NCBI RefSeq assembly: GCF_020906515.1 | Contig: NC_085850.1 | Coordinates: 186,001-250,000 of the forward strand | Direction of reading: 5' to 3' | Source of the DNA: Vanrija pseudolonga | Lineage: Eukaryota; Basidiomycota; Tremellomycetes; Trichosporonales; Trichosporonaceae | DNA: 64,000 nucleotides | Shown: positions 26,301 to 56,455 of the stretch, one piece after another | How the letters are laid out: each line of letters starts with the position of its first letter | Numbering within the stretch: position 1 is the stretch's first letter | Made by a program: the position numbers and the translations under genes | The notes under the pieces: model-generated | The model's input: the letters and a program-made list of their open reading frames with translations, nothing else | The model's database searches: none | What the model was told of the DNA's origin: nothing

Positions 26301-27354
26301 GGGGCGACCTCGGCGGGGGTGACAACAGGGGCGACCTCAACAGGGGCGACCTCGACCACAGGAGCGGTCTCGATCAGGGGAGCGGTCTCAACGACGGTCG
26401 TGGCCTCGACGACTGGGGCCTCAGCAACAGGGGCGACCTCGATCGGAGTGACCTCGGCCGGGGCCGCAACGACAGGCTCAGGGGTAGCGACCGGAGCCTC
26501 AACAACCGCGGCCTCGGCAGCAGTCTGGGGCTCAGCAACAACCTCAGCGGGCTCCGCAACGACAGCGGGAGAGGTCTCAGGCTCGGCGACCACCTCAGGC
26601 TCGGTGGTGATCGGGGCCTCGGTAACGACTGGGGCCTCCTCAACCTTGCGCTCCCAGAGGTCGGTTTGGTCGGCAAAGTTGGTGGCAACGTGGTCCTGGA
26701 GGTTCACGTACGGGCTGCCGTGGTAGAAGACGACGGCGCCCTGGGGGTACGGGGTGCCGCGGGTCCAGCGGACGAGGTCGTCCTCGGGCTCCTCCACGTC
26801 CTCGGGAGCCTCAGCAAACTTGAAGTGAGTAGTGGTGTAAGTGCTAAAGTGGAGGCGCTGCCAGTAGTCACGGTTCTTGACGGTCTGTGTGGCGCGTCAG
26901 TCTTGTTCACGGTCACGATCGCCCACGCGACCGGGGGCCCGCTCGCACTTACAATGTCGTGCGAGCCAGTGTGCGACTGCTTGGCACGGTAGGCGCGGCC
27001 CTTGTGCCAGACGACCTCGCCGGCGTGGAACTCGGTTCCCTTGCGCCAGTGGATGGCCTCGTCGTCATTGGCGGTCGAGTCCTCCGAGTCGCCCTCCGAG
27101 GTAGCCTCCGAGTAGCGGCTGCGACGGCGGCGGCCATAGCCACGGAGTCCGTGCCACTCGGGAATCTTGGTGAGAGAAGGGGTGGGGGAGGCGGTGATGG
27201 AAGAAGGGGTCTGCGAGGCGACCTCGTCAGCCGGGGCAGCGGCAGTGACGGGGGCCTTGACGGCGTCTCCGCCCTCGACGGGGAGGGCGGAGACGGGGGC
27301 AGTGTGCTCGATAGTGGACTCGGGCTTGTTGTCGATGATGAGCTGGTTAGGCAT
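14317..27354 (-). CDS. Giant Pro/Ala/Val/Glu-rich protein with carbohydrate-binding-like modules and a DM9/DUF3421 domain
   Basis: One gene of 13 kb. Introns placed at 26885-26952, 19823-19864, 19489-19525, 18698-18735, 16456-16495, 16072-16116 (GC-AG), 15624-15660, 15207-15245, 14700-14748 and 14412-14463 total 447 nt, leaving 12,591 nt: exactly 4,196 codons plus stop. Domains: two CBM5/12-like modules at about 102-142 (WRKGTEFHAGEVVWHKG) and 173-213 (WTRGTPYPQGAVVFYHG); 215-3671 almost only Pro, Ala, Val and Glu, strongly acidic, with a Lys-rich patch near 2440-2476; a charged Asn-rich linker 3672-3752; two weaker modules at 3776-3808 and 3903-3934 (WRRNVHYDAGDIVRYSG); and at about 4035-4196 two DM9 repeats (LPAVRWHLVEGG, PAGYDVD, LYAARFF, QWIPSRPGYGANTGGF, ending FEILTYSKA). 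No signal peptide or TM segment; RRRRSR at 75-80 could be a nuclear signal. Function unknown; an intracellular elastic tether or lectin-like scaffold is conceivable. Confidence 0.8.
15831..16071 (-). other. Charged, Asn-rich, lower-GC linker inside the giant protein
   Basis: Encodes residues 3672-3752, rich in Asn, Asp, Glu and Lys (for example NNFEDNKDINNNNEDNND), quite unlike the V/A/P/E region before it. Base composition drops to AT-rich codons. It is bounded on its 5' side by the proposed GC-AG intron. Confidence 0.55.
24533..24604 (-). repeat. 18-bp tandem repeat in the V/A/P/E region
   Basis: Three perfect 18-bp copies (24533-24586) and a degenerate fourth encode VAVEAP hexapeptides. 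The period is a multiple of three, so copy-number change would not break the frame. Confidence 0.85.
26231..26320 (-). repeat. 15-bp tandem repeat, six copies
   Basis: Six copies of a 15-bp unit (plus strand GACCTCGGCGGGGGC, last base T in the sixth) encode AEVAP pentapeptides. Near identity of the copies points to recent expansion within the giant gene. Confidence 0.9.
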
Positions 27355-29054: not shown

Positions 29055-29468
29055 CTAGAGCGCCACGAGCGAAGCAGCGACAAAGGCACAGGCGAGGAGC
29101 GTGCCAACCTTCCCAAGCCGTGGGAAGCCAGTGCTATGCGCGGAAGGCGACGCCGACACCTCAGACGACGGGGCAATCGGCATCACCGAGAAGCACCACA
29201 CGCGGCTGAGGTTGCTCGTGGGCCCGTGGGACACGTCCTCGTAGGTGCAGTTGACAAAGTTGCCCGTGTAGTTCCAGTTGGGGATGGTGCAGGTGTGCAC
29301 CACGGCCCCGGTGACGCTCTGCGGGGCCGACGTGAGGTTCGGGTGCGCGTGGAAGAACTGGCCCCACGGCACGTCGGCGTAGCTCGCGTTGTTGGCCGTC
29401 GTGCAGCATGACTGGAGCGACGTGTTGCTCAGCGCCGTGTAGCAGTAGCCAGAGTAGTCAATGGGCAT
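29055..29468 (-). CDS. CCM-1: small six-cysteine protein with GPI-like tail
   Basis: 137 residues, single exon. First of ten related minus-strand genes. The module begins almost at the N-terminus: YCYTALSNTSLQSCC, then spaced single Cys in HTCTIP, VNCTYED and VWCFSV, giving the family pattern C-x(n)-CC-x(n)-C-x(n)-C-x(n)-C. At least five N-x-S/T sequons. It ends in LGKVGTLLACAFVAASLVAL, a small-residue plus hydrophobic tail of the GPI-signal or tail-anchor type. No N-terminal signal peptide is visible. I do not recognise the family; it does not fit hydrophobins (two CC doublets, eight Cys) or CFEM domains. Extracellular, disulfide-bonded and surface-anchored is the most natural reading but conflicts with the missing signal peptide. 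Confidence 0.65.
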   Translation of the reverse strand: MPIDYSGYCYTALSNTSLQSCCTTANNASYADVPWGQFFHAHPNLTSAPQSVTGAVVHTCTIPNWNYTGNFVNCTYEDVSHGPTSNLSRVWCFSVMPIAPSSEVSASPSAHSTGFPRLGKVGTLLACAFVAASLVAL

Positions 29469-30601
29469 TGTCAGTGTTGTGAGTCGGGTGTGAGGTGGCC
29501 ATCGACGCCTCGGTGCCGGCTTAAGTAGCCGTCGTAACCACTTGCCCGCAACCTCGTCGCGTATCTGTCCGCGCCGAGAGTCCCGAGGTTTGATCGCTCG
29601 GATCGTCCGAATGGGCCGGAAGGGCAGGTGTATGAGCATGTGACTGCCGTTGCTGTGCTGCACGTGCGGGCCTAGAGCCCAAGCATAGACGCGGCAAAGA
29701 AATACACCGAGGACGAGGGCGCCGACCTTGCCGAGCGAGCGGGCACCATTGTGCACAAGGCGTGGGCGTGGGCGTTGGCGTCGATGTTGACTTGGCGTTG
29801 GCGCAGCTGTAGTTGTGTGGTGTTGAGTTCCGTGAGGCAGGAGCTTGAGATGGGGGGATGGTGTTGTGTCGAGGTGGTTGGCGGGAGCCATGGTCCAGCC
29901 TGCCTGCTATCCGCCTCTTCTCGTCCTCCCTCGCTCATCGCCACCGCGTCTCCAGCATCATCGGAAACACCGCCCAGTGCCAAGATGCGGTGGTCCGGGT
30001 GTTGATCGCTCGGGATGTGTGCATCCTGCGACAGCACCCCAGAGGCTGCACGGTGGCTGCGGATAAGGGTGGTGTTCCGGCAATGGGAAATGGGTCGGCC
30101 AGGGTGGTATTCCGGTGTCGTGACCGCGCGGTGCTGCCACCAATACCGATGCTCCGCCCATCTACCTGAGTCGTCCGTATGCACCGTCCTCGACTCGAGG
30201 CGCAGTGTTGCGGCTGTTCACGGCCGGATGTGTCGGTACCTGGTGTCACTGCTCCACTGCTGCGGATGGATGAGTTTCCGAGGGTCAGGTCTCAGGCGTC
30301 AGGCATCCATCCAGGTGCCCCGGATCCTCCCTCCCATCCGACGTCCTCCGGCGACTGCATCCATCGCGAGGGCGAGGCAGCGCCGCCGACATCTTGCGTC
30401 CTCTGCGTTCAGCAGGCGGTCAGTGCGTACCTGTATTATATGCATGCTCAATTATCTGCCATGTCGGGGAGGATGTCGGCCTGTCGGTCCGAGACTGCCC
30501 CCAACGCCCTAGTTGTTGCCGCCGTATCTTGTATCCTGGCGCATCGTCCCTCGCTCGTATCGTGTGTCGTCGTGTCTAAGCTCCTCTCTGTCGTCGTCGT
30601 C
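29469..30601. other. Intergenic region with a likely family relic
   Basis: 1.1 kb between CCM-1 and CCM-2. Apart from the possible tail fragment at 29672-29756, no gene is supported. Confidence 0.4.
29672..29756 (-). pseudogene. Possible remnant of a CCM gene (C-terminal tail only)
   Basis: The minus strand reads SLGKVGALVLGVFLC, close to the tail of CCM-1 (RLGKVGTLLACAFVA). No CC module, start or stop in a matching arrangement lies around it. It looks like the decayed 3' end of a duplicated family member. The match is short, so chance cannot be excluded. Confidence 0.35.
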
Positions 30602-30970
30602 TCACAGCGCCAGGACGGTACCGGCGACCAGCCCCAATAATGTGAGGAGCAGCGGTGTGGATAGCCGTCGGTCGGCGGCCGAGACGACAGTCGACGAGCA
30701 CTTGAAGTTGTGCTCGTCGCTAATGTTGCCCTTTACGCAGTTGAGCAGCACCGGCGCGCTCGTCGTGTACGCTACGCAGCTGCCAATGTCTGCGCCGACC
30801 GTCGTCCCGTTGGCCGAGAACCACGCATAGCCCTGCGGGTTGGTCGCGCGGAACGTGCTCGCGTTCTGGTTGAGGAAGAGGCCGTTCGCGCCCGCGCAGC
30901 ACGACTCGATCTGCTGCACGCTGGAAGAGTAGCACGCCGCATTCGAGTATTGTGGTGGTCCTTTGCCCAT
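30602..30970 (-). CDS. CCM-2: small six-cysteine protein with GPI-like tail
   Basis: 122 residues, single exon. Module: ACYSSSVQQIESCC, then GSCVAY, LLNCVKG and FKCSST, the same six-Cys order as CCM-1. Sequons at NAS, NGT and NIS. The C-terminus LLLTLLGLVAGTVLAL is the hydrophobic tail. The N-terminus (MGKGPPQYSNAAC) is short and polar, not a signal peptide; MGKGP has an N-terminal Gly but no good myristoylation context. A TATA-like box (GCTATATATG, 31041-31050) lies about 75 bp upstream of the ATG. Function unknown. Confidence 0.65.
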   Translation of the reverse strand: MGKGPPQYSNAACYSSSVQQIESCCAGANGLFLNQNASTFRATNPQGYAWFSANGTTVGADIGSCVAYTTSAPVLLNCVKGNISDEHNFKCSSTVVSAADRRLSTPLLLTLLGLVAGTVLAL

Positions 30971-31522
30971 CGTCGGTGTGTAGGTGGTGGATGCGATGCT
31001 GGGCAGAGCGGGGGCTCGCGGCGGGCAAGCCGGCCCACTCGCTATATATGGGGAATGCAGCCCAGCAGTAGCAGCAGCTCACAAGCAGCCAGGCAAGTCA
31101 CCTCTTAGCGATTGCAGCATGGGTGTGAAGGGAAAGTCACATGACGTGCCGGCGGCCATCGGCGCAGCACCTGCAAGGCGGCAAGAGACATCCAAGCCTT
31201 GTCGCGCACCTTAGCAGAGTAAATCATATTCATGTGTGAGATGGCTGACCCTTAGACTGCCTTGCCTTGAGGACGAGGTGCCACACCCGAGGCAGTCGAG
31301 GCAGAGGTCGATCATGGGCGTGCCTAAGTTTCATGACGTGCAATCGAGAGGCAGGCAGGTCGCCTCTCGACATGCTCAACCTCGCTAGCCAAAGCAGGGA
31401 ACTCGAGCTCTTGGCATCCAAATCCGTCGGACGCAAACTAACCAAGCAAGCTGTTGTTGACAGTGCTTAAATCCGGTGCTTTGGCTTTTCCGGCTTTGTC
31501 GTATCTCTGAGCTCGAGCGTGC
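30971..31522. other. Intergenic region, 552 bp
   Basis: Promoter of CCM-2 with a TATA-like box at 31041-31050, then the 3' flank of CCM-3. Nothing else recognised. Confidence 0.4.
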
Positions 31523-31864
31523 CTATAAAGCCAAGAGCGTCGAGGCGACCACCAACGCGAGGAGCAGCAATGCAGGCGTGGACACGACGTGCCGCGCGCC
31601 CGAGGCATAGGTGCACCAGACCTTGAGGTCGCCGGCTCGCTGCTTCAGGCAGTCGGACATCCGGTTGCCGTTGTCGTCAAAGTCGCACCGCCCAATATAA
31701 GACGAGGTGTTGGCATCCGCCGCGGACAGCGCCCCGGGATAGGTCGTGTTGTAGTCGGCGTAGGTTTGATTCGTGAAGGTCCCCAGGGTGAGGGTACAGC
31801 ATGCGTCGAGGGTGTCGAGCGCGGTCGAGGTGTAGCAGTCGCCCGAGGTGAGTGTGCCGCTCAT
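31523..31864 (-). CDS. CCM-3: small six-cysteine protein with GPI-like tail
   Basis: 113 residues, the shortest member. Module: DCYTSTALDTLDACC, NQTYADYNTTYP, then GRCDF, MSDCLKQ and VWCTYASG. Three sequons, two of them at positions shared with CCM-4 and CCM-5. Tail: TPALLLLALVVASTLLAL. The Met is ten residues before the first Cys and no signal peptide fits. Tandem with CCM-4, same strand, 304 bp apart. Function unknown. Confidence 0.68.
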   Translation of the reverse strand: MSGTLTSGDCYTSTALDTLDACCTLTLGTFTNQTYADYNTTYPGALSAADANTSSYIGRCDFDDNGNRMSDCLKQRAGDLKVWCTYASGARHVVSTPALLLLALVVASTLLAL

Positions 31865-32168
31865 GGTACTTGGTGTCGGTTGCGATGGACACGCTGAGAA
31901 GGTTCAAGTCACACTCGCTTACATATGCTCTGTCAACAGAGCCCCGGCTGAACGCTGTGTGGTGCGAAGTTTAAGAAGCAACAACATGGCATCGCATCGC
32001 AGACCTTGGAAGTCGGCGCACCGTGCTGTTATGTGACGCTGAGGCGGCCGTACCAGCCTGGGCTGAGATGGTGCGACGCGGAAGCTCCCTCGGGAAGGCA
32101 CATACACAGAGATATACATAGGGAAGCAACGGCCCTCAGCAACAGCGACATCTATCTTATCGACGACC

Positions 32169-32537
32169 TTACAACGACAAGACAGCCCCCGCCACCAAGC
32201 CGACAAACACCACCCACACGGCAGCACCCACGCCCCGCTCGGCCCGCGAGGTCTTGTAGGTGTAATCGCATACGCCGTGTATGCCCGACGCCTTGGCCTT
32301 GTCGAAACAATCGCTAAGCGGGCGGGGTGCCGAGCTTGAATGGCACCCGCCCACAAGCGGCGGGCTGAGCGCTTCGTTGGTCCCGGCGGTCGCGTTGACA
32401 ATGTTCGGGTGCGTGGCGTTGAACTCGGCAAACGTGACGTTGGTGTACGTGCCCATTGCGGACGCGCAGCATGCTTGCATGGCCACGAAGCCGTTCGACG
32501 TGTAGCAGTCTACGCTGGTGAGGCCGGCGGATACCAT
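32169..32537 (-). CDS. CCM-4: small six-cysteine protein with GPI-like tail
   Basis: 122 residues from ATG at 32537. Module: DCYTSNGFVAMQACC, NVTFAEFNATHP, then GGCHSS, LSDCFDK and GVCDYTYK. Tail: SRAERGVGAAVWVVFVGLVAGAVLSL, written here in full only as its ends SRAER and GLVAGAVLSL because its sister CCM-5 has SRAER and GLVAGTVVAL at the same places; the two are a recent pair. TATA-type box (GTTTATACCC on plus, 32601-32610) about 65 bp upstream of ATG leaves no room for an upstream exon. An in-frame upstream ATG near 32580 would add only proline-rich residues, not a signal peptide. Confidence 0.68.
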   Translation of the reverse strand: MVSAGLTSVDCYTSNGFVAMQACCASAMGTYTNVTFAEFNATHPNIVNATAGTNEALSPPLVGGCHSSSAPRPLSDCFDKAKASGIHGVCDYTYKTSRAERGVGAAVWVVFVGLVAGAVLSL

Positions 32538-32950
32538 TGTGTTGGGTGTTGGCGGAGGTGGCGGGTGGCGGAGGGCGGGGCTCATGTCGTCGCCGCCCTT
32601 GTTTATACCCCTGTGCCGGCGACGCCTTCCTATCCGCCTCATCGCCCCCATCGTGTGCTAGAACATCAGGTGGCACGCATACCGTGATGTGGTGAGGCTA
32701 GCTGCCAGCGTACGTCCCGCCGTCGCTGTCCCGTCGTCGCCGAGTGAGCTCCGGGCGGTGTTGTTGGTCGCGTGCCTAGCTCCCGAGATAGACTCACATG
32801 CCGACTCGCGTTCCGCATCGCGACTCCAGCAATGTCATCAGCGCAACGAACGAGGGACGAAGCTATGCAACACTGCCCGGGAGGCGATAACGTGCTGCAT
32901 CGGCCCCACAGCGCTCTGTGTCCCCGGCGGAAGCCTGCATCTGATGCTAG

Positions 32951-33313
32951 TTACAGCGCCACAACGGTCCCCGCCACGAGGCCCACCAAGGCGACCCACG
33001 CCGCCTTTGACACGCGGCGCTCGGCGCGCGACATATAAAAGTTGCAGCGGCCCTGCACCCCCGTGTCCTTCCATGCGGCGTTCAGGCAGTCGGCGAGGGT
33101 CTGCGCCCCACCAGAGTAACTGTTACACCCGCCGACGTAAGCCCCGCTCACGGTGCCATTCTGGGTGAGGTAGCCCACTACCCCGGTGTACGTCGCGTTG
33201 AACTGGGCGAAAGTCTGGTTGGAGAAAGCGCCGCTGGCCGCCGTGCAGCATGTCTTGATGGCGGTCGTGTTGAACGAGTAACACGAGGCCCCGGTGACCT
33301 TTTCGCCTGCCAT
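32951..33313 (-). CDS. CCM-5: small six-cysteine protein with GPI-like tail
   Basis: 120 residues. Module: SCYSFNTTAIKTCC, NQTFAQFNATYTG, then GGCNSY, LADCLNA and GRCNFYMS. Four sequons. Tail ends in LVGLVAGTVVAL after SRAERR. TATA box at 33371-33380 (CCTTTATACC on plus), about 60 bp upstream of the ATG, with GCCAAG (a PacC/Rim101-type core) beside it at 33365-33370. No signal peptide. Nearest relative is CCM-4, its downstream neighbour in the array. Confidence 0.68.
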   Translation of the reverse strand: MAGEKVTGASCYSFNTTAIKTCCTAASGAFSNQTFAQFNATYTGVVGYLTQNGTVSGAYVGGCNSYSGGAQTLADCLNAAWKDTGVQGRCNFYMSRAERRVSKAAWVALVGLVAGTVVAL

Positions 33314-34058
33314 GGTGTGTGGGTGTGGGTGTTGGTGGGGATGGGGCGGAGGCGGAGGTTCAGCGCCAAGCCTTTATACCTCTGGACTGTCGGCTCTTCG
33401 TATCCAGGCGAGCAAGGCCAAGTCTTCAGTACCGGCTAGCACGTACGCAGCGCCGTCATGGATCACCGCGGCAAGGCTGCAGATGCCCGTCGTCGCCGCC
33501 GTGCCGCTCGCCGTGCCTATGTTCGAGACCCGGATCTCAAACACGGTGCCAAGAACTACATAAGGCGCGCTGAAGTAAGTACCCCACAATTTGAAGCCTC
33601 TGGACTGTGTTCGCTCTACAGGCAGGAGCTGCACAGGCGCGTGCATCGGCGAGACCATATCGAGAGCATAGCGGCTGAAGTGATAGAAGTCATCTGTGGG
33701 TGTTGCTGGTCACTGCCCACAACCCCTCATCTCCCGTGCCGGCGGCAATGGCATGGATGTCCTGACGGCGTGGTCTGGTCGGCCGAGACATGTGTTCCGG
33801 TCGTATGTCGGCGAGGCTCCACGTTACTGTCACCACGGCGACTGGTCGGCCTCTAGTCCGTCACGACGAGAACGTGCACCGCCGTCACGCCGCCGTCATC
33901 GCCTCGGCCGTCGGCGCAAGCTTGCTTGCCTTGCCACTGGCGAGCACGCTCTCTCACCCCCGTTCCTGGCCACTCCTGCCCCCAGGCCCACGCCAAACAC
34001 CGCCCCATCAACGACGAATGCAGAGTCACCTCCATCACCTACACCTACACAATGCGAA
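33314..34058. other. Intergenic region with an unassigned 94-codon frame
   Basis: Contains CCM-5 promoter elements and a minus-strand frame (33374-33658) with a hydrophobic middle (VIHDGAAYVLAGTEDLALLAW). The frame matches no family I know and overlaps the CCM-5 TATA box, so I do not call it a gene. Confidence 0.3.
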
Positions 34059-34595
34059 TTATACAGCCATGACAGTAGCCGCCGCGAGCCCAACGAGCGC
34101 GACGACGCCGAAGCGTGCGGGGGCCGCGCCGGCGGCCGAGCTCGCGTGCGCACTGGGACTTGTCGTTGCCCCCGAGGCCGAGGGCGTCGACCCCGAGGCA
34201 CCAGCGGCACCAGCCCCTCGCGCAGGGTACGTCGTGAGCTCCTTCTCGCTCGTCTCGGCGAGCACGGTGCCGTTCGCGAGCGTGACCGTCAGGCCGACCC
34301 ACATGTCCTCGTCTGCCACGACGTCGGCGAACACGCATGCGGCGGACTTGGCCGCGCGGTCGTCCTGGAGCGGCGAGTCGATATGGCATCTTGTGGTCGT
34401 CTGCGCGGATATCGCTGCTGGCAACGTGAAGCCCTCGGGGACTGCGGCGGCGAACTGGGTGCTGGTGAGGTTGCTTATCTGCCCCGAGCCGTCGGCGCAG
34501 CAGCTGGCCAGGTCGGCCGCCCGGATGCCGGTGTAGTAGTCGAGCGCGACGGGGTCGCCGTGCGCTTGTAGCCCGTCGCCGAAGATGGCGGCCAT
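34059..34595 (-). CDS. CCM-6: four-cysteine CCM protein with Ser/Ala stalk
   Basis: 178 residues from ATG at 34595. Module of the second subtype: DYYTGIRAADLASCC, ISNLTSTQFAAAVPEGF, TRCHIDS, SAACVFAD, then MWVGLTVTLANGT. Cys1 and Cys6 of the small members are replaced (Y and V). A Gly/Ser/Ala stalk of about 35 residues follows, then the tail FGVVALVGLAAATVMAV. Such a stalk before a hydrophobic end is typical of fungal GPI proteins. No signal peptide. An (AAG)n run lies in the leader (34620-34642) and GCCAAG lies upstream at 34682-34687. Function unknown. Confidence 0.65.
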   Translation of the reverse strand: MAAIFGDGLQAHGDPVALDYYTGIRAADLASCCADGSGQISNLTSTQFAAAVPEGFTLPAAISAQTTTRCHIDSPLQDDRAAKSAACVFADVVADEDMWVGLTVTLANGTVLAETSEKELTTYPARGAGAAGASGSTPSASGATTSPSAHASSAAGAAPARFGVVALVGLAAATVMAV

Positions 34596-35151
34596 GGTCG
34601 TGCAGTTGTGGTGGCGAGAGTGAAGAAGAAGAAGAAGAAGAGGGTGTTGTGCAGACGAGCAAGACAAGTCGTGGGAGACATGCCAAGCCCTTGCATTCAT
34701 GCTGCTGCAGGGTGCGTGCCTGTAACAACTTGCGACGAACGAACGCATCTGGTGACGCAGACCCTAGGCGCGTGTCTCACTTAGCAAACAGGCTCAGAAT
34801 GTAGTGCAATTCGAGTTCCAGTTCGGCTCAGTTCGGCGAGGTGCTGCACGCTGAGCTGGTCAAGACATCGGGGGAGGACGCCGAGGTTGGCAAAGCCACA
34901 CGAGGGCGCCGCGCTGTCGGGCGCCGTGCGGTCGACGCTGCCTCACACGACGCAAACGACGCACACGACCTCACTGTTGTTGTACTCAAAAGCACCGTGC
35001 GCCGCTGCATTCCGTGTTGCGTAGTGGACGTCACCATGCGCTTGCTTGGTGCGCACTGGCGCGGTCGGTTGTCTTGGCTCCCGATTGCAGCAGGGATGCG
35101 TGGGCCGCAACCAGGTGCATAGTGGGTATGGATAAGTCTACAACAATGACC
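34596..35151. other. Intergenic region, 556 bp
   Basis: Leader and promoter of CCM-6 with the (AAG)n run and a GCCAAG core, then the 3' flank of the CRAL-TRIO gene. No gene seen. Confidence 0.4.
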
Positions 35152-36593
35152 CTATGCAGTAGCCGCCACGGCCTCAACGGCAGCCGGCGCAACAACCTCA
35201 GGCTCGGCCGTCGCCTCCTTCGTCCCGTTCGCCGTGCCCGCCAGCGTCGACTCCTCGCTCTCGACGCCCAGCTGGTCGACGGCATGCTTGATCCCCAAGC
35301 CGGTCGGCGCGACCCACGGCCTGCCTTGCAGGTCGAGCCTGCCGCCGTCTGGCGCGAGCCTGCAAAATCTGGTGGGTCAGACGCACTCATAACATTTCAC
35401 CCACTCGCTCAGCTCCTTCCAGTACACGCCGTGGTCGTACTTGAAGTTGACCTGCCCGCCGTAGTCGCTCTCGAGCTGGTCGGCGGCGATCAGCTCGTCG
35501 AGGTTGGGGTTGAAGCGGACCTATGTAGCGGCGTCAGCGGCTGGACGAAGAAGGTCAGGCGCACCTTGTCCCGCGACACGGGGTCGATGAAGGCCGAGAT
35601 GGCAGAGTAGAACGCGCCGAAGAACCACGGAGCGTTGACGATGATACCCCGCCCGAGACCTGCCGTCGGTCAGCAATCATGTCCCCGACGTCGCACCCAC
35701 GCTCGACGTAGTGGTTCGCCATAATGTGCAGCACGGTGCGCGACATGTGCATGCTCGTGCGCTCCGAGAACGAGATGGACGCGTACTGCCGTCGGTCAGT
35801 GAGGAACTAGCCGCTGGCCCACGTACATCAAGGAAGATGACGAGCTGTTCTTGGCCGGGCGGACACAGATCAATACAGCGCTCGAGGAACCACACGGTGT
35901 ACCGGACCATCCGGGGCGACTCCTTTGTGTTCTGTCGTCCCGGGCGCATGATGAGGAGAGGTCTTCCTTGTCTGTCAAACCCGGAGAGGACGCTGCGGAG
36001 TAGTGTCAGTCGACTTGCTCTTCCCCTCCTTCACCACGCACATCTTGCCCGTCTCGTTCTCGGGCTCCACCTCGCCCGGCTCGATCAAATCCGGCCGATA
36101 CTCCCTCCTCCACTCGATCGTCGCCTTGATGCGCTTCTTCGCGTCCGCCATGTGCCACTTCGCCGCGCGCATATAGCGCGCATGCACGCCGGGATCGGAG
36201 AGGAAGCGCCGCTCCCAGGGATAGTACTCGTCGTCTTCGGGCAGGATGAGCTCGTCGGTGTACTCGCGCAGGTCGTCGATCTGGCGCCGGCGTCAGTTCA
36301 GCTGGCTTGTGCTGTACAGTATGTAGCTTGCTTACGTCGGCGAGCTGGCTGTCGGTGTACTCCCGCACCGGGATCTCCGAGTCCTCCGGCGCGACAGCGG
36401 TGATAGAGTACGTGACGGGCAGCTCGTTGCTCGGTTCGGGGACGACGGGGAGCTTGGGCTCGACGACCGAGTCGGCCGTCACACCCTCCGCGGCGGTGGA
36501 GGACGCCGACCGCACAGGCAGCGGGACGGCCAGCCCGCCGTCAGCCTTGGAAGGCTCCGCAGCTGTGCTCGATGCCGATCTGAAGAAACCCAT
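35152..36593 (-). CDS. CRAL-TRIO (Sec14-like) lipid-binding protein
   Basis: Sec14-family phospholipid or sterol-type transfer protein, cytosolic or membrane-peripheral. From ATG at 36593 a low-complexity leader of about 80 residues is followed by LREYTDELILPEDD and the CRAL-TRIO-N helices (FLSDPGVHARYMRAAKWHMADAKKRIKATIEWR, quoted only by its landmarks ARYMRAAKWHM and IEWRREYRPD). The lipid-binding lobe reads FDRQGRPLLIMRPGRQN, YTVWFLERCIDLCPPGQEQ, VIFLD, then YASISFSERTSMHMSRTVLHIMANHYVER and GRGIIVNAPWFFGAFYSAISAFIDPVSRDKVRF, again matched by landmarks such as VNAPWFFGAFY and FIDPVSRDKVRF. About six short introns. It interrupts the CCM array on the same strand; no functional link is evident. 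Confidence 0.82.
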
Positions 36594-37140
36594 GCTCGTG
36601 GCAGCGGTGGTGAGATGTGCGATGATGAGACGATGTTGATGCAGTTGATTTCGCTTGCCGACCGACGGCCCCACGCCGCGGCCAGGTGAGCGAGCCGCGC
36701 GCGTCGGCACTGACACGGGTTTCCCGTGACGCCTCGCGACCCTGCTGGCTGTCGCCTTTGCCTCTGCCTTTCTGGCGCTCGCGGAATGCATACGCCGCGA
36801 GTGACAACCTGACGCGTACGTATACGAGATGCGCGTCGCGTGTCTCGGAACATGGGTGACTCGAGCGACACACCCAGACTCGTTACAGCTACAGCCTTTG
36901 CGGCCTTGGACCGACGCCTCGTCTCGGACTTGGCCGCACCACCCGGGATCCCCACTCTGCCCGACTCGGCCCCACGGGTCATTGCTATTTGATGCTTGTG
37001 CCGCCGCCATCATGGAACCGAGTGGACAAGTACACCAGCAATCCCACTCTATGCGTCCTCCGCACTAGCCGGTGTGGCGGATCTGCGGCATGCTCGGCGC
37101 CAATCGTGCCGGACCGACAGGAACATTGATCTGCAACGGC
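36594..37140. other. Intergenic region, 547 bp
   Basis: Promoter of the CRAL-TRIO gene and 3' flank of CCM-7. The sequence GTGGCGGATCTG near 37074 also occurs near 5655. No gene recognised. Confidence 0.4.
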
Positions 37141-37800
37141 TTATAGTACAAACATGACACCGGCGCACAACCCAAAAATGGCAAGAAGCCCGAACCCTAC
37201 CTGCACGCGTGTGGAAGACGACGCCGGGGCGTGTGCTGCGCTGGGACTTGGGCTGGGGGAGGAGACGACGCTCGTCCCAGCCACCGTCGGCGCAGCGGCA
37301 TTCGCGCGCGTGCTCGAACTCGAACTCGTCACCATGAACGCCGGAACCTCTTCGCCCTTCGAATTGGTCGCCATCGGTCCATGGTACGTGGACACAGCCG
37401 ACACCTGTGGATCAGGCAACCCAACCACAGTCCCGTTGGGCAGAGCAACCGTGATCTGGCACCATACCTCCCAGATCTGCGGGTCGGGGACGGCGTGCAG
37501 CGCGTTACCGAGCATGTGGTACTTGTCCGTCGGGGTGTAGCTGTCGGCCGCGCTGACGTTGAACGGGATGCGGCAGTGCGTTATGGTCGCCGAAGTGAGG
37601 TTCTGGGGTAGTCGGAAAGGGGAGGGCGCTGCGCCGTCGTACTCTGCCTGCGTGAGATTTGTCGCTGTGCCGTTCCACACCTTGCAGACCTGGTCAAGCA
37701 CGCCGAGGTGGATGCCCGACCAAATGTCGACGGGGATGGTGTTGTTTAGCGCCAGCGCCGCCGCGGCGGGCTGTAGTGGCCCGAGAGGTGCAACGGACAT
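37141..37800 (-). CDS. CCM-7: divergent CCM protein with reduced cysteines
   Basis: 219 residues from ATG at 37800. Module: DIWSGIHLGVLDQVCKVWNG, then NLTQAEYDGAAPSPF, THCRIPF and VWCQITVALPNGTVVG. The CC doublet is reduced to VC, Cys1 and Cys5 are absent and Cys6 is kept, so it is the most diverged member. It has six or more sequons. A long Ser/Ala/Pro stalk leads to a tail ending FGLCAGVMFVL. The N-terminus (MSVAPLGPLQPAAAALALNN) is the most hydrophobic of the family but lacks a basic n-region and a convincing cleavage site. Function unknown. Confidence 0.6.
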   Translation of the reverse strand: MSVAPLGPLQPAAAALALNNTIPVDIWSGIHLGVLDQVCKVWNGTATNLTQAEYDGAAPSPFRLPQNLTSATITHCRIPFNVSAADSYTPTDKYHMLGNALHAVPDPQIWEVWCQITVALPNGTVVGLPDPQVSAVSTYHGPMATNSKGEEVPAFMVTSSSSSTRANAAAPTVAGTSVVSSPSPSPSAAHAPASSSTRVQVGFGLLAIFGLCAGVMFVL

Positions 37801-38247
37801 GATGAGCGTGGTGTGTGGAGGGGTGAGTGCGAGGACGGGTCCGCGGCGCCGTCTTATGGCCAACATGGTTGCTGGAAACAACAGATCTGGGCCATGTGCC
37901 TGGAGGCATTGCCTTACACCGTTCCGCCACCGTCCCGCAACCACTCTTTGAACAGCTTGGGGTGTGCCTAGTGGAGGACGTTGGCTGCCTCCTACTCCTT
38001 GTGGTGCACCCACACCCCGTCTCAGCAAGGGGGAGGCCCAGTTCTGTGCCCTCACGACAACAGTGGACAGCGCGAGTTGGTCGATGACGCACATGACATT
38101 GCCTCCCTGCCAAGCTTCCTGATTTCACTCCGAAGTTGGAACATTTGTACCTGGTATCAACGACCGGTTAGCAGCTCTTGACGTGCACATTGAGTCTTCT
38201 GTATGCATTCACCCCTTGCGAATCCTACTCTGCCCACTTATCCCCCA
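37801..38247. other. Divergent promoter, CCM-7 and SIMPL gene
   Basis: A 447-bp head-to-head intergenic region. A weak TATA-like CCATAAGAC (minus) lies about 55 bp before the CCM-7 ATG. No shared CCM upstream element was found here. Confidence 0.35.
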
Positions 38248-39009
38248 ATGGCTGCTCAGGTATCCCAAACGCTGGCCCCAATCGGCACGGGCACACAGAT
38301 CACAGTGGCAGGCTCACACAGCGTCGAGCGGACCCCCGAGCTCGCGGATGTGACGATCCGCGTGGCGGCCGACGGGACCGACAAGGCCAAGGTGCTCAAG
38401 GTGTTCAAGGCCTCGGCCAACGACGTCGCGGGGATGATTTCGCGCATCGCGCCAGCGAAGCAAAGTGGCGGAGGGGCCGCCGTGCACGCCGAGTGGCCGG
38501 TCTGCGACGCGTCCAAGCCCGTCGTGCGGTGGCACACGGGGCGGCTGGCGACATGGTGGTGGGGGCCAGAGGCAACCCGGTACCGCGCGGAGCAGGACTA
38601 CACAGTCACGGTCCACGACTTCTCCGCACTCGAAGTGTTCGTCAGCACCGTAGCGGTGCGTGAAAGCGAGGCAGGGCGGGGCTGATGACAGATGGAGAAG
38701 AACGTGGACTTCAGCAACATCACCTGGCGGGTGTCCCTCCCGACCCGCGACGCCCTCGAGGCCGAAGTGTACGGCGGCGCGGTTCTCGACGCCAAGCGCC
38801 GGGCGCTCATCTTACTCGCACCCATAATGGACGCGCCGAGCCTCACGCCCCTCGAGATTGTGGAGAAGGCCGCCGATATCAACGTTTCGCTTCCTCGGCG
38901 TATGGGGCGCAGCGGTGGGTCGATAGGAGAGGACCCGCTTATCCGCTTTGAGCCTGCACCTATTAGGCACACGGTCAAGGTGGACACAAAGTGGGCTGTG
39001 GTCAACTAG
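38248..39009 (+). CDS. SIMPL-domain (DUF541) protein
   Basis: 241 residues, one 36-nt intron (38656-38691). The N-terminal half matches the SIMPL/DUF541 fold: GTQITVAGSHSVERTPELADVTIRV, seen through its landmarks ITVAGSHSVER and ELADVTIRVAADG, then KVLKVFKASANDVAGMI. It continues with YRAEQDYTVTVHDFSALEVFV and the C-terminal DALEAEVYGGAVLDAKRRA segment typical of the second repeat. SIMPL proteins are mostly bacterial periplasmic or poorly characterised; fungal copies are soluble. ATG at 38203 is in frame and possible; I chose 38248 because conservation starts soon after. It is the only plus-strand gene within the CCM array. Confidence 0.72.
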
Positions 39010-39191
39010 GGAAAGTTGTAGCGGCCATCCCCAGCTGTATGTTGTATGTAAGGCGCGCGGGCTGCCCAAGTGGCGCACGGTTGCGGGAACGAACACGTCT
39101 CTCACCGCCACATGGCTAAGACTTGAGTAGCAATGATGAGTTGTACATCCAACTGAGTACATAGTGCTTCAAGATGTAGAAATGGTGAATC

Positions 39192-40154
39192 TTAGAACAG
39201 TACAACCGCCGCTGCTGCAATGCCTATAAGCGATATCAACCCCAACTTGGCATGGCTCGAGCCTGCGGCAGACCTGGTGGCCGGGGCAGTAGGCGTCGTG
39301 GCCGCTGTGGGCGTGAGTGTGGCGATGATGCCGCCACCGGTGATCGACACAGGCCCGGTGGGATCGAGCCATGGCGTGGACGTGACAGTGAGACCGGGCT
39401 TGATCCAGACCCATATGGTGCCCCAAGCGTCTGTCTGCGTGGCGATGAACCACATGGGTACGGTATGTACCTCGTCGAGGCAGCTGGCGAGCTGGTCCCC
39501 GCGCACACTGGGGATGCGGCAGTGGCCCACGTTGCTCGAGCTGAGATCTGTGGGCAGGTCGAGCCCGATCGGCGCGGTCAAGTTATACGCCTCGACCGAG
39601 GTGAACTTGAGCGTGCCGTTCAGTCGGTCGCAGCACGAAGACATCTGGTTGAAGTAGAGGCCCGAGTAGAAGTCGGCATATTCGGCCCTGAACTTGTCGC
39701 CGACCTGGACAGAGTAGCTGTTCGTGTCGGTGGGCGCGGCGATCGTTCCACGGCCCGTGACGAGGGTGACCATCTTCCAGCCGTCCGCGTCGGGCAAGTA
39801 CCACACGGTTCCGTCATCAGCGTTCATGACCTCGGCGTACCACATTACCACGTCCGCGGGCGCCTTGGAACCGGGGTGCAGGCAGGTCTTGTAGGACATG
39901 TAGTTGCCCCGGCCCGGGCCAACGAGGTCGAGGTGGCAGCGGCCGATGACAGCGGACGAGATGTTCGGCGCGAGGACGAGCCCGGGCGGAGCGGTCGCAT
40001 TGAACTGGTCCAGCGTGAGGTTGTTGTACTGCCCGGAATATGTCGCACAGCACTGCGAGTGCAGTTGGGGTTGAAGACCAGAGTAGGTGTCGGCCGAGAG
40101 GCCGGTGGGGCCAGGTGGCGGAGTAAGTGTCGCGATTGTGAGCGTCCCGGACAT
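39192..40154 (-). CDS. CCM-8: double-module CCM protein
   Basis: 320 residues, single exon, two CCM modules. Module 1: DTYSGLQPQLHSQCC, NLTLDQFNATAPPGL, GRCHLDL, KTCLHPG, MWYAEVMNADDGT. Module 2 (from about residue 135): DFYSGLYFNQMSSCC, YNLTAPIGL, GHCRIPS, ASCLDEV, MWFIATQTDAWGT. Both are four-Cys modules. A Thr/Ala/Pro stalk precedes the tail LGLISLIGIAAAAVVLF, which is nearly identical in CCM-9 and CCM-10. No signal peptide. A TATA box is 59 bp upstream of the ATG, and the promoter shares three elements with CCM-9 and CCM-10. Function unknown; a surface protein is inferred. Confidence 0.68.
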   Translation of the reverse strand: MSGTLTIATLTPPPGPTGLSADTYSGLQPQLHSQCCATYSGQYNNLTLDQFNATAPPGLVLAPNISSAVIGRCHLDLVGPGRGNYMSYKTCLHPGSKAPADVVMWYAEVMNADDGTVWYLPDADGWKMVTLVTGRGTIAAPTDTNSYSVQVGDKFRAEYADFYSGLYFNQMSSCCDRLNGTLKFTSVEAYNLTAPIGLDLPTDLSSSNVGHCRIPSVRGDQLASCLDEVHTVPMWFIATQTDAWGTIWVWIKPGLTVTSTPWLDPTGPVSITGGGIIATLTPTAATTPTAPATRSAAGSSHAKLGLISLIGIAAAAVVLF

Positions 40155-40210
40155 GGCTAGTGGAGCGGTATGTATGCAAAGACTGGGAGCTGTTCTACTC
40201 TACTGTCCTC

Positions 40211-40311
40211 CTTTATACCCCTCCTGCCATCTCTGCCAAGCCTGAAGCCAGGTCTGGTCGAGAAGTCGAGAGGACATGGTGCAGGACATTGCCAGTGCCT
40301 GGACGTTTCAC
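40211..40311 (-). promoter_or_regulatory. CCM-8 promoter: TATA, GCTTGGC and 19-bp upstream element
   Basis: On the minus strand, reading toward the gene: a 19-bp element at 40293-40311 (plus strand CAGTGCCTGGACGTTTCAC), GCTTGGC at 40235-40241 (plus GCCAAGC, a PacC/Rim101-type core) and a TATA box at 40211-40220. The same three elements occur at the same distances before CCM-9 and CCM-10. Confidence 0.6.
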
Positions 40312-40401
40312 TTCCACATCTGCGGTCACATGTAAGATCCTCGGGTGCCGAGTTGTGCACTTTGGGTTGGGGACGTGTGCCTGTAGATGCATATACAAAC
40401 A

Positions 40402-40902
40402 CTACAGAGTCACGATCGCGGCCGCTGCCATCGCAAGGAGCGATATCAATCCCAACCTGCCATACGCCGACGTCCCGGAGGACTTGGACGCCGATGTGGC
40501 GGCTGCCGTCGTCGACATCGATGTGGCTGTTGCCGCGCTCGGTTCCTTCGGGAAGCCAAAGACTGTGCCGTTGGGGAAGATGTATGTCACCAGCAAGTGT
40601 GGATCGGTGGTGGCGTCCAACAAACACATCAGGACAATGTCAATCACCTCCCCACCGCCGACGTGGCAGTGTCCGATGGTCGGCGAGCCACCCTGGACAT
40701 CGGGGGGGAGGTAGGTGCCGCTCGGGGCCGTCGCGTTCCACTCGGCCAAGGTCATGTTGTTGGCTGTGCCGTTGCCCTTGGCGCAGCACGGCGCGATCGT
40801 GTGGAGGTTGACGCCGGCCCAGAAGTCTGCCGACGCGGGCTGCATGTCTGCCGGCGTCGAGGCGGGTACTGGAGCCGTTGTCGTGGGTGCTGGTGTGGCC
40901 AT
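40402..40902 (-). CDS. CCM-9: single-module four-cysteine CCM protein
   Basis: 166 residues. A Pro/Thr/Ala leader of about 28 residues, then DFWAGVNLHTIAPCC, NNMTLAEWNATAPSGT, GHCHVGG, LMCLLDA and VTYIFPNGTVFG. Cys1 and Cys6 are absent as in the other four-Cys modules. A Ser/Thr/Ala stalk leads to LGLISLLAMAAAAIVTL. No signal peptide; the leader is polar. Closest to the second module of CCM-10, from which it may derive or which it may have joined. Function unknown. Confidence 0.67.
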   Translation of the reverse strand: MATPAPTTTAPVPASTPADMQPASADFWAGVNLHTIAPCCAKGNGTANNMTLAEWNATAPSGTYLPPDVQGGSPTIGHCHVGGGEVIDIVLMCLLDATTDPHLLVTYIFPNGTVFGFPKEPSAATATSMSTTAAATSASKSSGTSAYGRLGLISLLAMAAAAIVTL

Positions 40903-40960
40903 ATTGTCAATGTGGGTGGGAGGGGGTGCGGCGAGCGCCAGCGCTTCTGCGTATCTTCTC

Positions 40961-41060
40961 TTTTATAGCCAGTCCCCTGATTCTGCCAAGCCCAAGATGG
41001 CGGGTCTTGCTGAGCTCGAGATCGTCGAGGACAACAGGGTGTAGTGCGTGGTCGTTTCAC
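40961..41060 (-). promoter_or_regulatory. CCM-9 promoter: TATA, GCTTGGC and 19-bp upstream element
   Basis: TATA box (plus TTTTATAGCC) at 40961-40970, GCCAAGC (plus) at 40985-40991 and the upstream element TAGTGCGTGGTCGTTTCAC at 41042-41060, two mismatches from the CCM-10 copy. Distances to ATG 40902 are about 60, 83 and 140 bp. Confidence 0.6.
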
Positions 41061-41179
41061 TGCAAGGACTGGACGGCCGTCACAACAACATGCTGGGGTA
41101 CGCGTCCCTGGCCACATGCCGTTGGTGCGTCCCATAAGCGTGCTCGTTTTCTCGTCCCCCATCGATACATAAGACAGCT

Positions 41180-42073
41180 CTAGAGAGAGACTATAGCCGC
41201 CGCAGCCATCCCCAGCAGCGATATCAACCCCAGCTTAACCTGCCCTGCCCCCGGCACCGCCGACGACCTCGCGCCCGTCGTCGCCGACGCGCCGCTCGGC
41301 CGCGCGCTGAACGTCCGCCACGGGTCGGGCACGTTCTCCGTCCAGCCGGTAACGGTCCCGTTGGCATCGGTGCTCGTGCCGACGTACCACGGCGTCGCCT
41401 CCAGTGGCTCGCCCTGCCGGAGACATGTTGCGAGGCTGGGCGACCTGTCGCCCGGCAGACGGCAGTGCGCGACTGTCTCTCCGCTGATGTTCGCGCGGAG
41501 ATAGAACCCCTCCGGCACCGTCGCGTTGAACTCTGCCAGCGTCATGTTGCCCCCCTGCCCCGCGAGGCGCTTGCAGCACGACGCCATCGTGTCCAGATGG
41601 ATGCCGGAGTAGAAGTCTGCCGTCTCGACGTCGTATGTCGTCGTGGAGGGGATCGGCGCCGTCGCAGTTGCGGTGCCAGTGACGTACGTGACGAGCGCGG
41701 TCGCGTTGCCCTCCGAGCCGCCGGCGACGGTGACGTTCCGCATCGTGAGCGTCATCCCGTACCACAGCGGCAGGGGGCTCGCCGTGCCGTTGAACAGGCA
41801 CATCACGAAGTCGCTGAAGCGCGAGCCGGTTCCCACGGACGGGTCGGTCCCGTTCTCGAGGTTGACGTGGCAGTGCCCAATGACCTCCGAGGTCATGTTC
41901 GGCTGGAGGTGGAAGCCCGGCGGCGCGGTCGTGTTGAACTCGGTTTGTGTGAGGTTGGTGTACTGGCCCTCGTTGGAGACGCAGCACTGGTCATGGTGGC
42001 CATGCCAGAGGCCAGAGTACGTGTCCAGCGCGAGGCTGGAGGCGGCTGGTGCTGCTGTTGTGGTTATGGACAT
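41180..42073 (-). CDS. CCM-10: double-module CCM protein
   Basis: 297 residues, single exon, two modules. Module 1: DTYSGLWHGHHDQCC, NLTQTEFNTTAPPGF, GHCHVNL, VMCLFNG, LWYGMTLTMRNVT. Module 2: DFYSGIHLDTMASCC, NMTLAEFNATVPEGF, AHCRLPG, ATCLRQG, PWYVGTSTDANGT. It has the highest sequon count of the family (about ten). A Ser/Ala stalk leads to LGLISLLGMAAAAIVSL. No signal peptide. Same architecture as CCM-8, so the module duplication probably came before the split of these two genes. Function unknown. Confidence 0.68.
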   Translation of the reverse strand: MSITTTAAPAASSLALDTYSGLWHGHHDQCCVSNEGQYTNLTQTEFNTTAPPGFHLQPNMTSEVIGHCHVNLENGTDPSVGTGSRFSDFVMCLFNGTASPLPLWYGMTLTMRNVTVAGGSEGNATALVTYVTGTATATAPIPSTTTYDVETADFYSGIHLDTMASCCKRLAGQGGNMTLAEFNATVPEGFYLRANISGETVAHCRLPGDRSPSLATCLRQGEPLEATPWYVGTSTDANGTVTGWTENVPDPWRTFSARPSGASATTGARSSAVPGAGQVKLGLISLLGMAAAAIVSL

Positions 42074-42125: not shown

Positions 42126-42217
42126 TCTTATACCTCCCGAGTTGCGTCGTGCCAAGCATTGAGAAACGCGGCTGTTGTCTTGTCAAGAGGGAGTGGTGCA
42201 GTGCCTGGTCGTTTCAC
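42126..42217 (-). promoter_or_regulatory. CCM-10 promoter: TATA, GCTTGGC and 19-bp upstream element
   Basis: TATA-like CTTATACC (plus) at 42126-42133, GCCAAGC at 42151-42157 and CAGTGCCTGGTCGTTTCAC at 42199-42217. Distances to ATG 42073 are about 55, 78 and 126 bp. Confidence 0.6.
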
Positions 42218-55700: not shown

Positions 55701-56455
55701 AGGTCCTTGGTCTTGCCGAGGGCCGTGGTGGGGCGGTGGACCGAGTGCTCGTCAATCACCTCGACGCCGGCCTCGCTCTCGCCGTACACGTCCATCGAGG
55801 ACGCGAACACGACCCACGGGTTGACTGTGCCCTTGCCCTTGCCCTTGGACAAGATACCGACCTTTGGTGCGCGCGCGAGCGCGTGCTCAATCGCCGTCAT
55901 GACGGCAATCGTGCCGCCCTCGTTGACCTCGCGACACTCGTCTTCCTTGGGCTCGCACCACGTGTTCAAGCTCACGGCCGCAAAGTGGATGATGCCGTCG
56001 AATCTGTGCGCGGCGAGCAGGTCCGTCATGGCCGTGCTTGGCGCCATGACCGAGCCGCGGTGGTACTTGACGTCCGAGGGCAGCGTGGCGGGGCGCGCGA
56101 CAATGTCGAGGACGTGCACCGTGTACTTGTGACTCAGGAGCTTGGGAATCAGCGCGTGCCCGAGGGATCCAGCGCCGCCGGTCAGCAAGACGGTGCGCGG
56201 CGGCGAGGACCACGGCGAGCCGAGCTTGCCCAGGCGCGTGAGCCAGCTCTCGTCCTCGTGGTGCAGCTCATCGGGCACGACATTGTCGTCGACCCACTCG
56301 CTGCCTTTGAGGCCGGCGACGGGGTAGTGCGGTTTTGGCTCTGGGCCCTGTACTGGTCTCGTGTTGCTGTGTGCGAAGAACAGCAGCGCGACGAGGGCAA
56401 TGCCCAGGACGAGGAGGCGGTTCCGCCGTAAGAGGTGCGCGAGGCCGCGGACCAT
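52748..56455 (-). CDS. Type II membrane SDR-exostosin (GT47) fusion
   Basis: 1,171 residues, one 192-nt intron (53095-53286; junction KGIAG-WSPRVSDAIFAGC). A single TM anchor at about 12-28 implies a Golgi luminal enzyme. Residues 88-450 form an NAD-binding extended SDR (epimerase/dehydratase) domain: LLTGGAGSLGH at 90-100, IIHFAAVSLNTW, FASSMDVYGE at 218-226 and RLPEVYGYHRA. At the catalytic YxxxK position it reads LGKTK (246-250), so Tyr is Leu. A middle region of unknown fold (about 480-720) contains WDQSYFYVRVD. An EGF-like Cys cluster (CWNDCSS, CVQTGNCRC) lies near 728-753. The rest is a GT47 exostosin domain: YVFSHPEFIKVHVV, LTHDWGVCLGFRWE, SWNGTPWGTGKSQRMRL and GWSPRVSDAIFAGCIPVLLEEG. 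GT47 enzymes add xylose, GlcA, Gal or GlcNAc. It is divergent from a GT71 gene. Confidence 0.85.

Follow-up and report, generated by a model that had tools for sequence, protein, structure and literature searches.

Fungal wall proteins anchored through glycosylphosphatidylinositol (GPI), of which the GH72 (Gas1-like) protein is an example in the genome studied here, combine N-glycosylation sequons, in some cases a serine/threonine-rich (S/T-rich) stalk, and a C-terminal hydrophobic signal that follows small residues. Tail-anchored membrane proteins have no N-terminal signal and carry one hydrophobic segment at the C-terminus, with basic residues before this segment. Here, we describe a protein family of the basidiomycete Vanrija pseudolonga, named CCM, which shares the tail, the sequons and in several members the stalk with the first group, but in which neither an N-terminal signal peptide (0/17) nor a known enzymatic or adhesin domain was found. 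The window, i.e., the whole stretch of 64,000 nucleotides that was analyzed (C2:186001-250000 in a genome of 24.87 Mb and 9 contigs), contains on its minus strand, between 29055 and 42073, ten open reading frames (ORFs) carrying twelve copies of one module, and the family comprises at least 17 genes and 19 modules on one contig, spanning ~112 kb. We consider it slightly better than an even bet (about 0.53) that the CCM proteins are Vanrija-type glycosylated, GPI-type surface proteins which enter the endoplasmic reticulum (ER) by their C-terminal tail. The genes are the following, with positions in the window unless preceded by C2:

29055..29468, minus strand: CCM1, 137 residues; one six-cysteine module and a GPI-like tail
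30602..30970, minus strand: CCM2, 122 residues; six-cysteine module and tail
31523..31864, minus strand: CCM3, 113 residues; six-cysteine module and tail
32169..32537, minus strand: CCM4, 122 residues; six-cysteine module and tail
32951..33313, minus strand: CCM5, 120 residues; six-cysteine module and tail
34059..34595, minus strand: CCM6, 178 residues; four-cysteine module, S/T/A-rich linker and tail
37141..37800, minus strand: CCM7, 219 residues; three-cysteine module (CC doublet and fifth cysteine changed), linker and tail
39192..40154, minus strand: CCM8, 320 residues; two four-cysteine modules (39753-40097 and 39372-39686), linker and tail
40402..40902, minus strand: CCM9, 166 residues; four-cysteine module, linker and tail
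41180..42073, minus strand: CCM10, 297 residues; two four-cysteine modules (41675-42034 and 41324-41629), linker and tail
C2:253747-254193: CCM11, adjoining the window
C2:321341-327360: CCM12 to CCM17, a second array

The original prediction had described a ten-member minus-strand array of genes of 113-320 residues; the ten ORFs and their twelve modules are indeed present, but ten proved too small a number for the family, and CCM4, CCM6, CCM7 and more likely than not CCM1 start at internal ATGs. When 3,190 ORFs, taken from C2:120001-360000 and two 10-kb stretches, were scanned with a profile derived from these twelve modules, six family ORFs outside the window were recovered with E-values of 1.1e-21 to 6.1e-5. 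CCM16, which the profile missed, was spotted when the list of ORFs was read by eye; CCM17 matches it with an E-value of 0.0055. For the remainder of the genome, CCM10, CCM5, CCM17 and CCM12 served as single-protein queries, and the sole off-contig match lay on C4 (E 0.085), where the best profile match had an E-value of 3.4. Since the profile covered the stretches named above and single-protein searches the remainder, 17 genes is a lower bound. Within C2:120001-360000, tblastn at E 0.05 revealed no further degenerate copies, and a degenerate extra tail copy suspected by eye upstream of CCM1 (~29700) was unsupported by DNA comparison (best E 2.2).

All 17 genes consist of one open frame running from ATG to stop, free of introns. 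For CCM1, a protein of 137 residues is more likely than one of 278 residues beginning at 29891, because the start of its ortholog P0006 corresponds to position 29468. The internal starts of CCM6 (178 residues) and CCM7 (219 residues) likewise rely on orthologs, and that of CCM4 (122 residues) on a TATA box and the alignment only. The public model P0008 begins CCM14 13 residues further upstream, an alternative start that still provides no signal peptide (hydropathy 1.41). Among the public models, LOC62_02G001859 fuses CCM5 with CCM4, LOC62_02G001898 fuses CCM16 with CCM17, LOC62_02G001862 (CCM7) is devoid of a tail, and LOC62_02G001896 reproduces most of CCM14; with neighbors fused and a tail dropped, the family may therefore be hidden from automatic clustering.

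The CCM genes are a real, selected protein family, as had been claimed. In all 17 genes, the GC content reaches 0.76-0.88 at third codon positions versus 0.51-0.67 at the first and second ones, and all six paralogue pairs that were compared (35-45% identity) differ most often at the third position, four of them differing least at the second. Nine orthologs were found, eight in Logan contigs (P0006, P0009, P0001, P0010 and P0004, with a longest contig of 35,780 bp; P0012, 6,435 bp; and P0014 and P0016, 4,549 bp) and one in Vanrija albida (P0015, Q8F55_007265), and the nine pairs keep 47 of 47 cysteines. Identity over these pairs amounts to 91/133 before the module, 635/806 in the module, 134/221 in the linker and 150/198 in the tail. 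Chance open frames could be suspected in DNA with a GC content of ~63%, where long antisense frames are common; this explanation is refuted by the members recovered outside the window, the ortholog cysteines and the codon-position pattern, and can practically be dismissed.

The other matches of the protein searches were this genome's own (P0002, P0003, P0005, P0007, P0008, P0011 and P0013), and the proposed lineage specificity holds as far as these searches reach: they find relatives of limited length sharing five-residue words, with two-module proteins of ~300 residues outside or near the limit, and part of them scored the best 8,000 candidates. As to placement in a described family, which would have refuted the original prediction, Pfam returned no match over the cut-off for the 10 window proteins or 8 further family proteins, and the best PDB match by sequence (E 0.17) was not significant. 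As far as Pfam and the PDB go, the family hence appears to have no described relative.

Regarding the module itself, the frame initially proposed is shared by its copies, with two corrections: in CCM1-5 a cysteine lies within the "aromatic" step (C-Y-[ST]) and another one near the module end, giving six cysteines rather than four, and CCM7 has V-C in place of the CC doublet. The smaller steps, read by eye in the twelve window modules, turned out to be frequent but not universal (N-[LMQV]-T in 9/12, N-x-T-x-P in 7/12 and C-H/R in 8/12). Before the tail, exactly six cysteines are found in 11 modules, four in 7 and three in 1, so that in 18 of the 19 modules the set is even, with losses occurring pairwise. 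An AlphaFold2 model of the second CCM10 module (41324-41629; m33b970a555d3) adopts a ferredoxin-like alpha/beta fold (predicted local distance difference test, pLDDT, 86.9; predicted template-modeling score, pTM, 0.79), and the CCM5 module is likewise predicted to be ferredoxin-like and alpha/beta (pLDDT 77.4, pTM 0.60), both predictions drawing on one common set of sequences. The CCM5 model places C1 (residue 11) in the first strand and C6 (residue 90) in the last one, and these two cysteines are the pair jointly missing from the seven four-cysteine modules. The disulfides are proposed to be nested, C1-C6, C2-C5 and C3-C4.

Comparison of structures with Foldseek gave no PDB match at E ≤ 0.001, and in a viral structure library the best match of the CCM10 module model was a nameless protein, A0A6G5YCC9 (E 7.5e-3, probability 0.99, TM 0.56). 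The resemblance to ferredoxin-like folds, including the EF-G/eEF2 domain and its spliceosomal counterpart, PII/SbtB, CutA1 and designed ferredoxin folds, is at the level of the fold only. KP6-type killer proteins of fungi and their relatives use a ferredoxin-like, disulfide-stapled domain too, and the CCM proteins could be imagined as secreted toxin- or effector-like proteins, the array being an arsenal in competition. The predicted architecture of the two modules and the large divergence between tandem copies would suit such a role, which we nevertheless regard as very improbable. Compared with ferredoxin-like folds and KP6-type proteins, the CCM models have one or more extra helices after strand 2 and cysteine staples, and no sequence similarity to them. 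No KP6, SMK or hydrophobin entry was recognized among the structure matches listed, an absence that is not evidence by itself, and a literature search pairing KP6 with ferredoxin-like effectors found nothing within its reach.

Two other families had been set aside from the outset, and rightly so. Hydrophobins (PF01185 and PF06766) are defined by eight cysteines with two CC doublets, and CFEM (PF05730) is an eight-cysteine domain. Hydrophobins are also small fungal proteins, and the first five CCM cysteines follow the hydrophobin-like order C-CC-C-C, but each module has six, four or three cysteines and at most one CC doublet, no signal peptide was found, a tail is present, and the predicted fold is alpha/beta rather than a small beta-barrel. 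Membership was considered because the nested pairing proposed above equals that of the first three hydrophobin disulfides, as given in PMC5445765. It is ruled out by the cysteine number, Pfam and the predicted fold, PF01185 and PF06766 being unlisted at E ≤ 10 for the 10 window proteins and at E ≤ 1 for the 8 further ones in searches whose HMMER filters drop most matches above ~0.1. Searching the whole genome with PF01185 gave no match, but neither did the control genomes, so that this result says nothing about absence. CFEM is likewise ruled out, being absent from the Pfam matches listed, and the CCM modules hold at most six cysteines.

Concerning their destination, the CCM ectodomains are rich in sequons. 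N-x-T occurs 59 times in the 17 ectodomains versus 13.9 expected (standard deviation 3.4; largest of 2,000 shuffles 27) and N-x-[ST] 76 times versus 24.1 (largest of 2,000 shuffles 39), while in 179 further frames of the region that span 250 residues or more from stop to stop, a control that takes in antisense and non-coding frames, N-x-T was found 54 times for 69.1 expected. A hydrophobic C-terminal tail is present in 17/17 proteins (Kyte-Doolittle hydropathy 2.11-2.84 for a 17-residue stretch among the last 30 residues); by eye, a small-residue triplet precedes it in most of them, and several of CCM6-10 have S/T-rich stalks. The genome's GH72 protein, also read by eye, has a canonical signal peptide (hydropathy 2.59) as well as a similar tail. 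The surface location that was originally claimed is indirectly supported by the GPI-like tail, the paired cysteines and the excess of sequons, the missing signal peptide having then been overlooked; since no signal peptide occurs in 17/17, "surface protein" is a conclusion that we infer.

The same anatomy could be that of tail-anchored proteins, inserted through the GET pathway or one like it into the ER, mitochondrial or peroxisomal membrane, with a cytosolic and perhaps metal-binding cysteine domain. All 17 proteins lack an N-terminal hydrophobic signal and have their only hydrophobic segment at the very C-terminus, and in many of them basic residues stand just before the tail. However, the N-terminal domain is sequon-rich and cysteine-paired, which would be unexpected in the cytosol: the fourfold N-x-T excess and the pairwise cysteines (18/19 modules) fit an oxidizing, glycosylating compartment, and the S/T-rich stalks speak in the same direction. 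We hence regard a tail anchor as rather unlikely.

The lack of a signal peptide in 17/17 proteins, their most surprising feature, is well supported at the level of sequence. Among the first 40 residues, the most hydrophobic stretch of 11 scores 0.28-1.53 in all of them, compared with 2.59 for GH72, the single positive control. A strict exon finder (GT-N-[AC]-G donor, [CT]AG acceptor, intron of 40-300 nt and hydropathy of 2.0), which does recover the GH72 signal exon, found a signal exon in the 700 nt upstream of 0/17 genes (mean of shuffles, run under these strict rules, 0.6; range 0-3). Many of the genes also have a recognizable promoter of their own: TATAWD occurs 92-45 nt before the ATG in 8/17 (shuffles: mean 0.16, maximum 2), with boxes at 59-84 nt, and a relaxed form in 13/17 (mean 0.92, maximum 4), the TATA patterns, the interval and the promoter words examined below having been picked after seeing the sequences. 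The TATA boxes of the window and the copies of a promoter element are:

31043..31048, minus strand: TATA box of CCM2 (-78)
32602..32607, minus strand: TATA box of CCM4 (-70)
33373..33378, minus strand: TATA box of CCM5 (-65)
40212..40217, minus strand: TATA box of CCM8 (-63)
40962..40967, minus strand: TATA box of CCM9 (-65)
42127..42132, minus strand: TATA box of CCM10 (-59)
40295..40310, minus strand: promoter element TGAAACGTCCAGGCAC, starting 156 nt before the CCM8 ATG (C2:226295-226310)
41044..41059, minus strand: promoter element TGAAACGACCACGCAC, with one mismatch, starting 157 nt before the CCM9 ATG
42201..42216, minus strand: promoter element TGAAACGACCAGGCAC, starting 143 nt before the CCM10 ATG (C2:228201-228216)
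C2:323262-323277: promoter element TGAAACGNCCAGGCAC, third exact copy, before CCM14 in the second array

These data bear on the possibility that the CCM proteins are ordinary GPI wall proteins whose signal peptide is encoded by a missed upstream exon or arises from an unusual start, all their other features being those of a GPI wall protein. Three of four public V. pseudolonga models (P0007, P0011 and P0013, not P0008) fuse neighbors or drop the tail, and looser rules do yield exons: any GT/AG at hydropathy 2.0 gives candidates in 3/17 genes (CCM3, CCM10 and CCM15), that of CCM10 being signal-like, and a threshold of 1.8 gives 2/17 (CCM7 and CCM13). We weigh these candidates as chance, yet they raise the odds of a missed exon slightly. 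Against it stand the strict search and the TATA boxes; moreover, the gaps between the neighbor's stop and the ATG of CCM8 (247 nt) and CCM9 (277 nt) both hold a TATA box and the promoter element, and the CCM10 candidate would splice out this gene's own promoter element and TATA box as an intron. Among the orthologs, whose starts were set by gene callers, the distance from start to module agrees to within two residues in 8/9, and P0004, which begins 16 residues later than CCM9, is likewise signal-less. Hydropathy, strict exon search and promoters thus agree that the cleavable N-terminal signal peptide of a GPI-anchored protein occurs in 0/17, and we find a missed exon decidedly unlikely.

In the explanation that we favor, luminal proteins targeted by their tail, each gene would encode one or two disulfide-stapled ferredoxin-like domains, sometimes followed by an S/T-rich stalk, and a tail exchanged for a GPI anchor. 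Because no N-terminal signal was found, the tail itself may be the ER-targeting signal, recognized after translation through a SND- or GET-type route, which is the most inferential step; the ectodomain would then be moved into the ER lumen, N-glycosylated and eventually displayed at the wall. A bolder proposal, in which targeting depends on the GPI-attachment tail alone and the ectodomains of a whole family are drawn into the ER starting from the C-terminal side, probably goes too far, although we take it seriously. We know of no natural tail-only ER-entry route of this kind. Human SND2 reportedly acts on GPI proteins whose attachment signals are weakly hydrophobic, and GPI-anchored SND clients ordinarily have signal peptides too. 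In yeast, the SND route was identified through work on GPI-anchored proteins, as stated in PMC8998515. Tail-assisted targeting is thus conceivable.

Several points weigh against tail-targeted entry into the lumen. To our knowledge, there is no precedent for a natural GPI-type tail protein devoid of a signal peptide, a literature search on such proteins having found nothing within its reach, and no established route by which a C-terminal signal alone would bring 90-290 residues of N-terminal domain into the ER. The sequon count is non-independent, owing to the shared ancestry of the paralogues, and module sequons are kept in 27/32 cases in ortholog pairs versus ~0.66 expected from single-residue persistence (N 17/20, S/T 85/110), a modest excess, with retention of only 0/1, 1/2 and 2/4 in three of the nine pairs. 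CCM7 keeps C6 without C1, contrary to strict pairing, and four proteins (CCM1, 7, 11 and 15) have a cysteine inside the tail. To these are to be added the basic residues before the tail, which would also suit a tail-anchored protein, the exon candidates obtained under loose rules, and the absence of a strict TATA box from 9/17 genes.

If the CCM proteins are luminal, they would provide 17 natural signal-less substrates with which entry into the ER by the tail alone could be tested directly in ordinary yeast; a cytosolic location would call for a different account of why a tail anchor carries a cysteine domain rich in sequons, and both outcomes would be informative. In either case, measured against Pfam and the PDB the family is new; it has no Pfam model, its cysteine code is defined and its fold predicted, and its promoter element is nearly private to it. 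The tandem copies are highly diverged while their cysteines are fixed, which suggests a role where surface variety is useful, such as contact with other cells, microbes or the surroundings.

As for the promoter element, TGAAAC-N(0-5)-CCAGGCAC has three matches genome-wide, lying before CCM8, CCM10 and CCM14 and hence in both arrays, with none for the reversed control and ~1 expected by a rough estimate at equal base frequencies. When one mismatch is allowed in TGAAACGNCCAGGCAC, 4/7 sites are family promoters, CCM9 being the fourth (reversed control 3). Within 400 nt of the ATG, TGAAAC is found in 8/17 genes (shuffles: mean 1.17, maximum 5), CCAGGCAC in 5/17 (mean 0.35, maximum 2) and GCTTGGC in 7/17 (mean 0.89, maximum 3), while GGCACT is unenriched (6/17; mean 2.78, maximum 8). 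The element is a possible regulon mark; a shared promoter could also come from duplication, though the proteins of both arrays are highly diverged. In budding yeast, TGAAAC also forms the core of the Ste12-type pheromone response element, which we mention as a lead only.

Elsewhere in the window, four other minus-strand loci attracted our attention. Very long frames with Val/Ala/Pro/Glu repeats (PVVE-type) extend over 15556-27354, perhaps as one giant protein, and their apparent N-terminal part (26704-27354) is CBM_5_12-like (E 3.1e-5, below the Pfam cut-off). An isocitrate-lyase/PEP-mutase family enzyme (PF00463, E 2e-54) is encoded at 1308-2603, and a ferric reductase with Ferric_reduct, FAD_binding_8 and NAD_binding_6 domains at 48401-50989. 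Finally, a single frame of 1060 residues at 53273-56455 combines an NAD-dependent epimerase with an exostosin GT47 domain.

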